Assembly: GCA_900498135.1 (NCBI GenBank)
Contig: LR026961.1
Span: 4,375,552 to 4,439,551, forward strand
DNA length: 64,000 bases
Direction: 5' to 3'
Source of the DNA: an uncultured Desulfatiglans sp.
GTDB taxonomy: Bacteria; Desulfobacterota; DSM-4660; Desulfatiglandales; Desulfatiglandaceae
A program made the translations under genes and the position numbers. Shown here one piece after another: positions 5,028 to 31,933 of the stretch. The notes below the pieces were generated by a model, which had not been told where the DNA came from, ran no database searches, and saw only the letters and a program-made list of their open reading frames with translations. How positions within the stretch are numbered: position 1 is the stretch's first letter; the number at the start of each line of letters is the position of its first letter.

Positions 5028-5616
5028 AAAGGTCTTTTTCTCTTTCTTGCCGTTGTTAAGGATTGATCGTACGCTGATTCGAGGCACCGTCCAGCAGGTT
5101 CACACAGATGCTGAGAATCGTTTACAGGAGCCGGACGTCTCTGGTTCGTTTTCCCATTACAGGAGGCAGTTTAGACCTCTTTACCTGCCTTTGTCAATTT
5201 TGTTTCCAGCTGAGCCCAGCCCTGGAGGTGGAATTCTTGAACCGAAAAGACTCACGCCGACTCCACGGCTGTGGGAAAGCCCACGTTGCCTTCCTTCCCC
5301 GCCGCACGGCACGCGGCCTGCAGAGCGGTCAAAGACCCGGAGACAGACGGCGTTCCCGGCTGCCGCGAGCTCGATCGGGCCGGGAGCACCCAAAGACCCA
5401 TGGGCAGGCGGGCGTTCCGAAGGAGATATCAGTTGACACGATACCACCCTTTGTCTATCGTTGAATCGTCTTCTTTTTTTTCGCCCCCGGCCGGAGACGA
5501 TACACACAGCCCCCTTCGCCTGAAGCCGTGAGGCCTCGAGCTGCGGGGAAAAGGGCGTCGAGGGCCTTTTCATCCCGGACCGATGCAGCTACTTGGACGA
5601 CCAGAGGCACGAGCGG
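5028..5616. other. Divergent intergenic region between helicase and unknown protein
   Basis: About 590 bp separate two divergent genes. Open frames here overlap one another on both strands and none resembles a known protein or has a good ribosome-binding site. The region probably holds the helicase 5' leader (minus strand) and the promoter listed separately at 5433-5461. No other structure is recognised. Confidence 0.5.
5433..5461 (+). promoter_or_regulatory. Sigma-70-type promoter
   Basis: A perfect -35 TTGACA (5433-5438), a 17-bp spacer and a -10 TATCGT (5456-5461, 4 of 6 matches). It reads toward the unknown CDS at 5617, giving a leader of about 150 nt. Confidence 0.5.
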
Positions 5617-6192
5617 ATGCAGAACATCTTGGATCTGAGGGAGAGCGCGCTTGCCCTGAAGGCCGACGAGCGGATGATCGCTTTTGCCGGCTTCAGCCTT
5701 TCCTCCGGCCGCCTCCCGGCCCCGAAGCAAGGGATCTTGAAGATATCCGCTTCCTGCCGTGAAAACGGCAGCGGTTACCTGACCCTCACCTTTCTCGTGG
5801 ACACCGAAGGCGACCCTGCCGATCGAAACACCGTCAAAGACCTGTTCGGGCAGCTATCGGAACAGGCGGTTTCGGCGCGGCTCAACGGTCTGATAGACCT
5901 GTTCGTCAAAGTCCCCCTCGATTTCATGGCTCCTCTGGAGGACTGGTATGTCGAAGAGGTGAACCTCTATTTCAAGGTCCTCGAGGGCCGCGAAAGGTTC
6001 TTGGTTGAAAGACATCTCTTGCCCGCACTGGAATCGATCCTCTCCTGCGCCTTCGCGGTCGTCGAGTGGTGGGCATCCGACGATGCGCCGCCCGCCGGAC
6101 GCAAAGGCAAGGAGGAAAGGCATGGAATGGAGGGCGCTCATACGTTCAGGGATTTATTCCGCCGGCTTTTTGCCGGCGGCGATCGAGACTAG
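5617..6192 (+). CDS. Unknown protein, 191 residues
   Basis: I do not recognise this protein. It is predicted soluble and acidic (MQNILDLRESALALKADERM start; a central segment YLTLTFLVDTEGDP; ending RRLFAGGDRD), with alternating beta/helix-like stretches and no clear motif or membrane span. The ATG at 5617 is chosen because GAGG sits about 9 nt upstream; a TTG at 5593 has none. The stop TAG uses the first G of a MITE-like element. In the reconstructed empty site the stop would have been TAA at the same codon, so the insertion left the protein intact. Confidence 0.65.
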   Translation: MQNILDLRESALALKADERMIAFAGFSLSSGRLPAPKQGILKISASCRENGSGYLTLTFLVDTEGDPADRNTVKDLFGQLSEQAVSARLNGLIDLFVKVPLDFMAPLEDWYVEEVNLYFKVLEGRERFLVERHLLPALESILSCAFAVVEWWASDDAPPAGRKGKEERHGMEGAHTFRDLFRRLFAGGDRD

Positions 6193-6366
6193 TTTCCATC
6201 CGGGAATGGTCTTTTTGGCCAATCTCGGCGTCAATCTGCACGTTTGCTTGTGCGGCGAGCTGCAGGTCGCCTCCGCGCAAGCGCTTGATTTCCTTGATAT
6301 TGGCCAAAAATCCTCATTTCCGGATTGGAAACCGAGTTCTACCGCAAAAACATTTCCGGATGGAGA
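6192..6366 (+). mobile_element. MITE-like element, copy 1, with 8-bp target duplication
   Basis: A 175-bp non-coding element. It starts GTTTCCATCCGGGAATGG, and its right end (CATTTCCGGATGGAGA) is an inverted version. An inner inverted pair, TTTTTGGCCAAT / ATTGGCCAAAAA, sits at about 6211-6222 and 6299-6310. The 8-mer CGAGACTA lies immediately left (6184-6191) and right (6367-6374), as expected for a target-site duplication. The 6192-6332 core aligns at equal length (141 bp) with the copy at 31657. It encodes no transposase, so mobilisation would be in trans. Confidence 0.85.
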
Positions 6367-6408
6367 CGAGACTAAACGCCGACATGGCATCCACATGGAG
6401 ATAGCCGC

Positions 6409-6765
6409 ATGAAACACAAGAAGACACGTTGGGTTCTCCTGACCGTTCTCCTTTTTTTCCTCATCCCGGCGACTTTCGGGACGGCATTTTCAGCTCAATC
6501 GGACGAGTTCTACGTAGAGCCTCAAACCGCTGAAAAGATGCTGCTCGATCTGGCGTTGGTCAGGCCGCTCGGCATCGTCGGGACGGTCCTGGGAAGCGTC
6601 GCCTACGTGGTTTCCTATCCGTTCGCAGCCTGGGGGGGCAACACGGACGAAACGTATCAGTATCTTGTGGCCGATCCAGCCATATATACCTTCCGGAGAC
6701 CCCTGGGGCATTTTGAAAAGGATCTGGCTGAAGAGCAGGATCCCCTTTACAAAAGGGGTGAGTAA
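6409..6765 (+). CDS. Small secreted or membrane-associated unknown protein
   Basis: 118 residues with a lysine-rich n-region, a hydrophobic stretch (VLLTVLLFFLIPATFG) and a likely signal peptidase site near FSA-QSD (residue about 29). A second hydrophobic segment (LGIVGTVLGSVAYVVSYPFAAWGG, about 54-77) precedes a NTDETYQ...YTFRRPLGHFE motif. Small proteins with this pattern are common and uncharacterised in Desulfobacterota. The mature part probably sits at the inner membrane or in the periplasm. It stands alone between a MITE copy and a convergent peptidase gene. Confidence 0.75.
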   Translation: MKHKKTRWVLLTVLLFFLIPATFGTAFSAQSDEFYVEPQTAEKMLLDLALVRPLGIVGTVLGSVAYVVSYPFAAWGGNTDETYQYLVADPAIYTFRRPLGHFEKDLAEEQDPLYKRGE

Positions 6766-6899: not shown

Positions 6900-8336
6900 T
6901 CAGACCCCTGTCCCGCACTCGAGAAAGGCCCTGTAGGCACGGTAGGTCATGTACAGGTCGCCTTTGTGGGTGATCTCGAAGGGCGAGTGCATAGACAGGA
7001 TCGGCGGCCCGCAGTCCACGATTTTCACGCCATGGACGGCAAGGTATTTAGCGGCCGTTCCGCCGCCGCCCTCGTCCACCTTTCCCAACTCACCGGTCTG
7101 CCACACGATCCGTCCACGTTTGAAGACCCGCCGCAGCCAGCCCAGGTATTCCGCATCGGCATCGTTTGCACCGACCTTGCCCCGGTGGCCGGTGAACTTG
7201 ACGAAACAGGGTCCATAGCCCAGCCGGGCGGCGTTTCGCTTCTCGTGCACGTCCTGATAGTCCGGGTCGAGTGCGCCCGCTACATCCGCCGAAAGCGCCT
7301 CCGACGCGGCGAGCACCCGCCCGACCGCCCTGGCGGTCGCATCTTCCCCGGCCGCCTCGAGGCAGTCCCCGACCACCGCCTCGAGAAATTTCGATCTGGC
7401 GCTCGTCGCGCCTTCGCTGCCGATCTCTTCCTTGTCGACGAAGAGCACAAGGGCGCTCTTTTCACTCGGGACCATGTCCAGAACAGCCCTGAGGCTCGTA
7501 TAGACGCAGGCCCGGTCGTCCTGTCCATAGGCGCCCACCATGGCGCGGTCCCAGCCGACATCCCGCGCCGGACCCGCCGGAACGACCTCGATCTCAGCGC
7601 TGATAAAATCCTCCTCCAGGAGTCCGAGCGTTTCGTTGAGATGCGCCAGGAGGGCCAGTTTGAATCGGTCCTTCGTCTCGTCATCCCCCAACGGCAGAGC
7701 GCCCGCGATCACGTTGAGCTTCTCCCCCTCGATCGCCTCGCCGAGTTTCTTCTCGTACTGGGATTTCGCGGCCAGATGCGGCAGGAGATCGAGCACGGAG
7801 AAGACCGGATCGTCGGGCTTCTCACCCATGGCAAGGTCAAGCCAGGAACCGTCCGCGCGCAGGATCCGGCCGTGGATCGCCAACGGCCGCGCCAGCCACT
7901 GGTACTTCTTGATTCCGCCGTAGTAATGGGTCTTCAGAAATGCCAGATCCGCCTCTTCGTAAACCGGCCGCTGCTTGAGATCCAGCCGCGGCGAATCCGT
8001 ATGCGAAACGATCACACGCAGGCCCTCCGACAAAGGGGCGCTTCCAGGCCGGACAACCGCCGCCCACTTCCCACGGCGAGAGCGGAAAAAGGGGGCCTTT
8101 CCCCCGCCGGACCCGGGCGCCTCGGCGAACCCATTCTCGAGGGCCAGCCGCCGGATGGTTTCGACCGCTTCACGCTCGGTCTTGGATGCGTCCAGAAAGG
8201 GCTTGTAGGCATCGGCAAACCGAAAAACAGCCTCCCGCTCTTCAAAGCCGATGGCGTCCCACACCAGCGCCGGTTGATAGACAAGCTTGTCCTGAAGCCT
8301 GGCCATTTCTTCCTTGTCAGGCCGTTTCTCTTCCAT
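6900..8336 (-). CDS. M18-family metallo-aminopeptidase
   Basis: A 478-residue peptidase of the aspartyl aminopeptidase (M18, Lap4/ApeA) family, using a two-metal site to remove N-terminal residues from peptides in the cytoplasm. Metal and catalytic motifs visible: IVSHTDSPRLDLK (His/Asp, about 109-121), YGQDDRACVYTSL, VDKEEIGSEGATS (catalytic Glu pair) and the C-terminal SMHSPFEITHKGDLY (His). Length fits the family. The start ATG at 8336 follows a purine-rich stretch. It is transcribed alone, upstream of but well separated from pyrD on the same strand. Confidence 0.9.
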   Translation of the reverse strand: MEEKRPDKEEMARLQDKLVYQPALVWDAIGFEEREAVFRFADAYKPFLDASKTEREAVETIRRLALENGFAEAPGSGGGKAPFFRSRRGKWAAVVRPGSAPLSEGLRVIVSHTDSPRLDLKQRPVYEEADLAFLKTHYYGGIKKYQWLARPLAIHGRILRADGSWLDLAMGEKPDDPVFSVLDLLPHLAAKSQYEKKLGEAIEGEKLNVIAGALPLGDDETKDRFKLALLAHLNETLGLLEEDFISAEIEVVPAGPARDVGWDRAMVGAYGQDDRACVYTSLRAVLDMVPSEKSALVLFVDKEEIGSEGATSARSKFLEAVVGDCLEAAGEDATARAVGRVLAASEALSADVAGALDPDYQDVHEKRNAARLGYGPCFVKFTGHRGKVGANDADAEYLGWLRRVFKRGRIVWQTGELGKVDEGGGGTAAKYLAVHGVKIVDCGPPILSMHSPFEITHKGDLYMTYRAYRAFLECGTGV

Positions 8337-10662: not shown

Positions 10663-10766
10663 TTGCCCATATCAAGGAAATCCAGCGCTTGCGCGGAGGC
10701 GACCTGGAGGTCGACGCACAAGCGAACGCGCTGATCGGCTGGACAAGGCCCTTTCCGGATGGAAAT
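10663..10766 (-). mobile_element. MITE-like element, copy 2 (partial, reverse orientation)
   Basis: About 104 bp matching the reverse complement of the 6192/31657 element, from the inner ATATCAAGGAAATC segment through GCGCGGAGGCGACCTGG to the terminal TTTCCGGATGGAAA. The outer part of the other end is lost or decayed. It ends 14 bp before the start of the solute-binding protein gene, so it forms part of that gene's leader. A half-similar stretch (CCATCCGGGAAGGATCTTTT) at about 10527 may belong to another decayed end. Confidence 0.75.
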
Positions 10767-25911: not shown

Positions 25912-25979
25912 GTCGGAACATCCTTTCCGCTGCTCTTCAGGTGCCGTGTGGAAAAAACACCGCGGCGGGTCACGGTTTA

Positions 25980-26092
25980 GTCAATATCAAGGGAATCAAT
26001 CGTTTGCGCGGAGGCGACCTGCAGGTCACCGTACAAGCAAACGTGCAGATTGACGCAGAGATTGACCAAGAAGACCATTTCCGGATGGAAAT
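25980..26092 (-). mobile_element. MITE-like element, copy 4 (partial, reverse orientation)
   Basis: About 113 bp matching the reverse complement of the intact element, from TCAATATCAAGGGAATC through TTGCGCGGAGGCGACCTG, AAACGTGCAGATTGACGC and CCATTTCCGGATGGAAAT. The far terminus is missing and no clear direct repeat flanks it. Translation of this region gives the [13 protein letters not shown]-type peptide typical of spurious reading frames from this repeat. Confidence 0.75.
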
Positions 26093-27245: not shown

Positions 27246-27889
27246 TAGATTTATTTCATATTGAGATTAAAAAATTCAGCACCAATCAAAAATCCCGTCC
27301 CAATTTCAGAAAGCGCTTCGCCCATTCACTTTTATTAGAGTACCGGCGCATGGCCCCATTCCGATAAAAGATAACGTTCTATTATTGAACAATATATACA
27401 AAATCGATCGACTTTTTCAACCGATATCCGTCGGTAAAACTGCTCCCTGGACCGTCTGAAAAACTGTAGAGATTTGTTCTATCCATCTACGCACAAGAGC
27501 GGGTGTTTATCCTGAGCAACCTTTTCTTTCCCGAGTCGGCCAAGGATCAGTGCGACAGCGCGAAAAAAGATGCGTGAGAATACGTCCCGATTGTTATAAT
27601 ATGAGGTAAGGGCAGGATTGAGGGTTGCAGAAATCGTCTCCTTCGCCCAAACATGACCGAACACATTTTTCCCGGCCAGCCACGGCCGATCGGCGTAGAG
27701 GGATTCTTCGTCCTCGGGTTTCAGTCGTCGCGCCGGTCTTGGGTCAAGCAGGAAGAAAACGCTTCCGGGAAGTCTCAGCCGTCCATTTGCATGCTAAAGG
27801 ATAAGGACATCGGACCTGATGGCTGTGGTGCTTCTGCCGATAGCCTGATGTTGGCTGGGAGGCCCGCTTGTCGAGCGGGGCGGGTCCCG
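27246..27889. other. AT-rich then mixed non-coding region
   Basis: The first 180 bp are markedly AT-rich compared with the rest of the window; the remainder returns to normal composition. Short open frames (27479-27664 minus, 27653-27964 plus) have no recognisable product and no good ribosome-binding site. No RNA gene is recognised. Confidence 0.4.
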
Positions 27890-28005
27890 TTTTGGCCAAG
27901 CCCAGAGAAATCAAGCGGGCGGAGGCGACCTGGTGGCCGCCGTACAAGCAAGGACGCAGATTGACGAACAAATTGGGAAAAAGGACCATTTCCCGACCGA
28001 AATTG
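27890..28005 (-). mobile_element. MITE-like element, copy 5 (diverged, reverse orientation)
   Basis: About 116 bp from TTTTGGCCAAGCCC through AAATCAAGCGGGCGGAGG, GACCTGGTGGCC, CAGATTGACG and CATTTCCCGACCGAAATT. The order and spacing match the reverse complement of the intact copies with many substitutions. It lies 48 bp before the YvlD-like gene and so within its leader. Confidence 0.65.
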
Positions 28006-31656: not shown

Positions 31657-31830
31657 GTTTCCATCCGGAAATGGTCTTTTTGGCCAATCTCGGCGTCAAT
31701 CTGCACGTTCGCTTGTGCGGCGACCACCAGGTCGCCTCCGCGCAAACGCTTGATTTCCTTGATATTGGCCAAAAATCCTCATTTCCGGATTGGAAACTGA
31801 GTCCTACCGAGAAATCATTTCGGCATGAAT
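31657..31830 (+). mobile_element. MITE-like element, copy 6, with 8-bp target duplication
   Basis: A 174-bp element starting GTTTCCATCCGGAAATGG, with inner arms TTTTTGGCCAAT / ATTGGCCAAAAA and a diverged right end (ATTTCGGCATGAAT). ACTAGATC occurs exactly at 31649-31656 and again at 31831-31838. The 141-bp core to 31797 is the same length as the core of the 6192 copy. It occupies the mnmG upstream region and could affect mnmG expression. Confidence 0.85.
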
Positions 31831-31933
31831 ACTAGATCATATGAAACGAGGTCCTACCGGGATACCCTCTCCGGATGGACGCGGGACCGGCAAATTCTTC
31901 AATCAGCGGAGGCCGGTTCCCGCAAAACCCCTG

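Follow-up and report, generated by a model that had tools for sequence, protein, structure and literature searches.

A short MITE with a conserved hairpin as cargo, probably mobilised by an ISNCY-family (ISDol1-like) transposase

NEMIS/Correia, ERIC and REP/BIME sequences are mobile or dispersed palindromic repeats whose transcripts can form long hairpins. Bacterial MITEs, as reviewed in PMC10969869, are short, lack a transposase gene, have terminal inverted repeats and duplicate their target; they reach high copy numbers and have the same ends as a resident insertion sequence (IS). ISDol1 is listed as a subfamily of ISNCY in PMC8147514. In Geobacter metallireducens, “24 predicted short RNA elements” have been noted, and G. 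sulfurreducens, G. uraniireducens and Desulfotalea psychrophila are named alongside them (PMC2700814).

We analysed a stretch of 64,000 nucleotides (the window), which corresponds to C1:4375552-4439551 in G000, a closed genome of 4.8 Mb. The element found at position 6192 has all the listed properties of bacterial MITEs. We consider it highly likely that it is a 176-bp MITE that is mobilised by an ISNCY (ISDol1-like) transposase and carries a conserved hairpin as cargo.

The element at position 6192 and its target sites

The features of the locus, and a second copy in the window, are as follows.

5593-6192, forward strand: upstream gene, 199 aa from a TTG start within an open frame of 222 codons; no Pfam match
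6185-6191: left target-site duplication, GAGACTA (from the family-wide duplication analysis and the empty site of the sister species)
6190-6192, forward strand: stop codon TAG of the upstream gene; TA comes from the target and G is the element's first base (TAA in the sister empty site)
6192-6367, forward strand: MITE, GTTTCCATCC...GGATGGAGAC, 176 bp
6192-6208, forward strand: left terminal inverted repeat, common to the 3′ end (relative to the transposase) of the candidate parent IS
6351-6367, reverse strand: right terminal inverted repeat, matching the left repeat at 15 of 17 positions
6368-6374: right target-site duplication, GAGACTA (same evidence as the left)
6409-6765, forward strand: downstream gene of 118 aa whose start resembles a signal peptide; no Pfam match
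31657-31832, forward strand: second full-length MITE copy, with the 6-bp duplication TAGATC; not in the sister species

A sequence-only reading had proposed a 175-bp MITE with imperfect inverted ends and 8-bp target duplications. The insert is flanked by CGAGACTA at 6184-6191 and again at 6367-6374, and its ends are indeed imperfect inverted repeats (GTTTCCATCCGGGAATG / GTCTCCATCCGGAAATG). The boundaries seen across the family give a length of 176 bp instead of 175 (GTTTCC...GGAGAC), which is the best reading of the element, and this sequence contains no transposase gene. The proposed flanking repeats are real, and only their size had to be revised. The left one reads as 8 bp once the preceding C at 6184 is counted, and the apparent 8-bp repeat arises because a terminal C belongs to the element at any target, and this particular target also supplies one. 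Of 43 insertions whose flanking repeats are identical, 33 have a duplication of 6 bp, eight one of 7 bp and two one of 5 bp (thus 6-7 bp in 41). None has 8 bp, so that 8 bp at position 6192 was dropped for 7 bp.

The same 43 insertions give the target consensus C|TANNTA|G, and the element itself begins with G and ends with C. In an 864-kb sample, flanking repeats of at least 5 bp were seen 19 times, compared with about 0.3 for randomly shifted flanks. Copies without direct repeats had been named as evidence that would count against a MITE; instead, 43 insertions in the sampled sequence have exact repeats of 5-7 bp. A BLAST search of the element's own genome, which had also been proposed, gave at least 41 near-full-length matches at 92-100% identity (40 candidates were scored). 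The exact 14-bp end motif TCCATCCGGAAATG occurs 287 times in this genome, whereas the reversed control does not occur.

The nearest available relative is a sister species of the same genus (G001). Both genes that surround the window insert are present there at 93-94% identity, and the insert is absent. The empty site reads ...GGCGATCGAGACTAAACGCC with a single CGAGACTA, which is the stretch of eight bases by which the left and right parts of the query overlap. This is exactly the empty site that had been reconstructed from the window alone, and the upstream gene ends GDRD-TAA in the sister species where the window has TAG at the same codon, as had been predicted. Seamless empty sites were found there for seven copies (333832, 975684, 2359458, 2419696, 3590664, 4407211 and 4381746); the second window copy is one of the six further copies whose target is single in the sister species. 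Some of the remaining copies are common to both species or are altered in the sister. The seamless empty sites imply that the family has moved since the two species split and, with the duplications and an IS that has the same ends, they support the proposed transposition of a MITE.

The upstream gene is present in only two of 46 genomes of the family, namely this genome and the sister species. Between these two, its dN is 0.032 and its dS is 0.146 (dN/dS about 0.22), and the corresponding values for the downstream gene are 0.019 and 0.185. Since dN is far below dS in both, the genes are real and under purifying selection. The earlier suggestion that gene function was preserved therefore holds in the sense that the coding sequence is kept, with its exact C-terminus and a stop codon.

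TAA becomes TAG automatically, since the TA that closes the target joins the G that opens the element; to judge from this anatomy, a gene that is struck in its TAA or TAG stop thus keeps an in-frame stop. An adaptive version of this observation is that insertion prefers stop codons as a harmless way to enter genes. In three of about 38 insertions with duplications, a long frame does stop precisely where target and element meet (the window copy with 222 codons, 2359458 with 256 codons and 1370445 with at least 499 codons), and all three have a stop codon both before and after the insertion. However, chance places three of 55 non-coding YTANNTAR sites in 864 kb at stop codons, so three of about 38 is no excess over motif-matched sites, and the effect on the stop codon follows from the TA-rich target and the element's first base. 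We rejected this preference, which we regard as very improbable.

Some copies in the genome stand in head-to-tail arrays, 12 bases apart (3+6+3), at C1:2312545-2313131, 293077, 2291784 and 2195744. These arrays apparently reflect repeated insertion into a regenerated target site: C and G again border each copy of the target, which could therefore take another element, and this would explain the recurrent 12-base spacing.

A candidate parent insertion sequence

A full-length parent IS with the same ends had been suggested as something to look for, and a candidate was found. We screened the 20 loci of this genome with PF01609 matches for the ends of the MITE. Three of them (L073, L076 and L077) have these ends at their boundaries, and the other 17 were set aside as unrelated. 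The three IS are 1693-1698 bp long, have ends GTTTCCATCCGGAAA and share a frame of 455 aa, which is uninterrupted in L073 and L076 and has one premature TGA in L077. The predicted transposase contains the domains DDE_Tnp_1 and DUF772, and it scores 445.8 bits (L073) and 438.9 bits (L076) with the NCBIfam model of the ISNCY family, NF033593, whose cut-off is 325.

L076 is flanked by an exact 6-bp duplication, TAAATA, and L073 lacks matching flanking repeats. A 1698-bp relative in another genus (L141 in G016) has a transposase 66% identical to this one and the duplication TAATTA, so that its target, too, is of the TANNTA kind seen for the MITE. The 3′ end of this relative includes an exact stretch of 18 bases that is common to the MITE copies of genus g5. 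We take NF033593 to represent the ISDol1 group, for which the recorded duplication is presumably 6-7 bp long; the duplications TAAATA and TAATTA are compatible with that length.

The flanks of L077 (C1, near 2157340-2159050) read TAGGTA/TACCTA and are inverted rather than direct repeats, perhaps as a result of recombination between copies. The lack of direct flanking repeats in two of the three IS copies, and the premature TGA in L077, count against the proposed parent. Nested ends at 1112684-1114236 resembled an IS at first, but the segment holds only MITEs and host genes.

Because the ends and the duplication are common to the IS and the MITE, mobilisation in trans is the best explanation, and the ISNCY transposase is most likely what moves the MITE. 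We propose that the transposase of the resident 1.69-kb IS recognises GTTTCCATCCGGAAA-type ends and, through a staggered cut of 6-7 bp that would duplicate the target, places the element into palindromic sites resembling CTANNTAG. With G at its start and C at its end, the element would rebuild the target motif at each junction. What the IS and the MITE share is limited to the terminal 15-18 bp or so. The interior of the MITE is therefore of other origin and not simply an internal deletion of these IS. In the proposed scheme, it would be a structured hairpin that already existed throughout the phylum and is now carried as cargo.

The hairpin and its occurrence outside the element

Most of the element folds into a single long hairpin on the reverse strand, a feature that the sequence-only reading had not described.

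6192-6334, reverse strand: conserved long hairpin, 143 nt (covariance-model match of 150.8 bits, E = 9.6e-34)
6315-6332, reverse strand: end-like repeat CATTTCCGGATTGGAAAC within the element, which supplies the partner arm for the base of the long hairpin
6254-6271, reverse strand: terminal stem-loop GGCGACCTGCAGCTCGCC, which changes with compensation between genera

The favoured strand carries GCGGAGGC...GCCGCAC, and two internal loops are conserved, CAAGGNNNUCAAGG / GACGCNGAG and GCGGAGGC / GCCGCACAA. Copies are found in many other genera, some of them in a second family of the order, and the whole elements align with hardly a gap. These copies keep the ends and a TANNTA duplication, and their inner arms change together. 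In the reverse-strand alignment, 17 of 50 pairs show compensatory double changes. Double-change cells number 106, compared with 30.9 in shuffles, and the share of paired cells is 96.8%, compared with 37-47% when the partners are slid.

In some relatives, the hairpin at the tip has been swapped for an unrelated GC-rich one (L243 and L239), and others have gained additional hairpins of about 19-28 nt (L241, L057, L236 and L238). Such exchanges point to selection on shape. We rejected the idea that the interior is coding. Several frames are open in the window copy, but in other genera the tip differs in length by 1 nt and contains stop codons, and entire hairpins have been exchanged or added.

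With a covariance model built for the 143-nt hairpin, matches were found in 51 of the 85 genomes from the class and in 81 of the 395 genomes sampled from the phylum. Several genomes match over the inner 118-120 nt alone and lack the transposon ends; such copies in other genera, without terminal inverted repeats (TIR), correspond to model positions 14-133. The window itself has partial or degenerate matches to the model at 25977-26069 (79 bits), 10667-10748 (45 bits) and 27866-28003 (44 bits). No family of Rfam 15 reaches its gathering threshold over the element, either in the window or in the relatives. The central palindrome known from the short RNAs of G. metallireducens, GRCGTAGCGCTGCTACGCC, occurs exactly in four TIR-less loci (L297, L300, L302 and L308). 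The window copy has a diverged tip, and it is the covariance model that places it in that family.

Two near-identical loci (L298 in G361 and L301 in G146) have a TIR-less hairpin that adjoins a sub-threshold Rfam match to the TPP riboswitch; on these model matches, the hairpin has apparently been inserted into a peripheral stem of the riboswitch. A search of plasmid and phage collections for the element gave no match. One viral contig (L320, IMGVR_UViG_3300009082_000856) ends in a copy of the hairpin (7847-7957, 85.9 bits), which could possibly reflect a route between hosts or a mis-binned contig.

Differences between the strands bear on whether the hairpin acts as RNA or as DNA. Under single-strand folding, the consensus reaches -62.5 kcal/mol when the window copy's reverse strand is used, compared with -29.6 kcal/mol for its forward strand. 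We also compared G-U pairs with A-C mismatches in 39 clusters from across the phylum, separated at less than 85% identity. At strand-neutral pairs, G-U occupies 73 cells and A-C 30. G-U exceeds A-C in 25 clusters, with the opposite in five (p = 0.0003), and at 25 pairs, with the opposite at seven (p = 0.002), these p-values being optimistic in that the sequences lack full independence and the reverse-strand model had guided the alignment. At pairs chosen to have no G-U on either strand, the cells number 33 versus 11, yet only 10 pairs versus five. The bias favours RNA from the reverse strand, and the hairpin is probably an RNA read from that strand. A DNA-level role, in which a cruciform or single-strand hairpin aids transposition or replication, has in its favour that the base of the hairpin consists of the left end and the internal end-like repeat, and DNA secondary structure is often used by MITEs and IS. 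We nevertheless find it unlikely, given that the fold is so much better on one strand and that a double-stranded cruciform would show no excess of G-U such as that in 25 of the 30 informative clusters.

An RNA role for the hairpin also invites the reading that this is primarily a family of dispersed regulatory or structural RNAs (or DNA hairpins), comparable to REP/BIME or to repeats of short RNAs, in which the transposon ends are incidental. The TIR-less occurrence in other genera, the strong covariation with its G-U bias and the G. metallireducens palindrome in four TIR-less loci all fit this idea. Yet defined ends, 5-7-bp duplications and clean empty sites in this genome and across the class are the marks of transposition. 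Moreover, the copies are oriented at random with respect to their neighbours (19 of 48 are co-directional with the upstream gene and 27 of 48 with the downstream gene), which therefore indicates no cis-regulatory role for them. We accordingly doubt that the ends are incidental, and we retain the view of a MITE with hairpin cargo. A compatible and quite possible refinement, which we hold only tentatively, is a conserved structured RNA module that exists throughout the phylum, free-standing as well as inside a MITE. ISNCY-type ends would then be one of its vehicles; the fold would be under selection and the mobile element would be its carrier or parasite.

Comparison with known systems

The MITE itself is ordinary, and its class is already known. 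Its documentation is unusually full, with empty sites in the sister species, a resident IS that has its ends, and one simple rule that accounts for both the stop codon and the arrays. What appears to be new, as judged from sequence, is that an element flanked by TIR carries a conserved hairpin with covariation. Unlike the bacterial MITEs described in PMC10969869, its interior is no remnant of an IS and instead shows compensatory changes throughout the phylum. That the shape of the hairpin is maintained in this way in dozens of genera, both with transposon ends and in their absence, and together with an RNA-like strand bias, is not what is expected of selfish filler DNA.

The resident 1.69-kb IS agrees with the ISNCY model NF033593 in its 455-aa transposase, which scores well above the cut-off, in its domains DDE_Tnp_1 and DUF772 and in its 6-bp duplication. 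The NEMIS/Correia, ERIC and REP/BIME repeats, to judge by their general descriptions, differ from the element in their ends, target duplication and hosts.

The hairpin resembles the short RNAs of G. metallireducens (PMC2700814) in being multi-copy and intergenic, and its TIR-less relatives have the same central palindrome; it is on this palindrome that the likeness in sequence rests. The available part of that report mentions neither transposon ends nor mobility for the short RNAs, whereas the form in the window is TIR-flanked. Short RNAs predicted in Geobacter in 2009 are now tied to a mobile element, and the role of the hairpin becomes a testable question.
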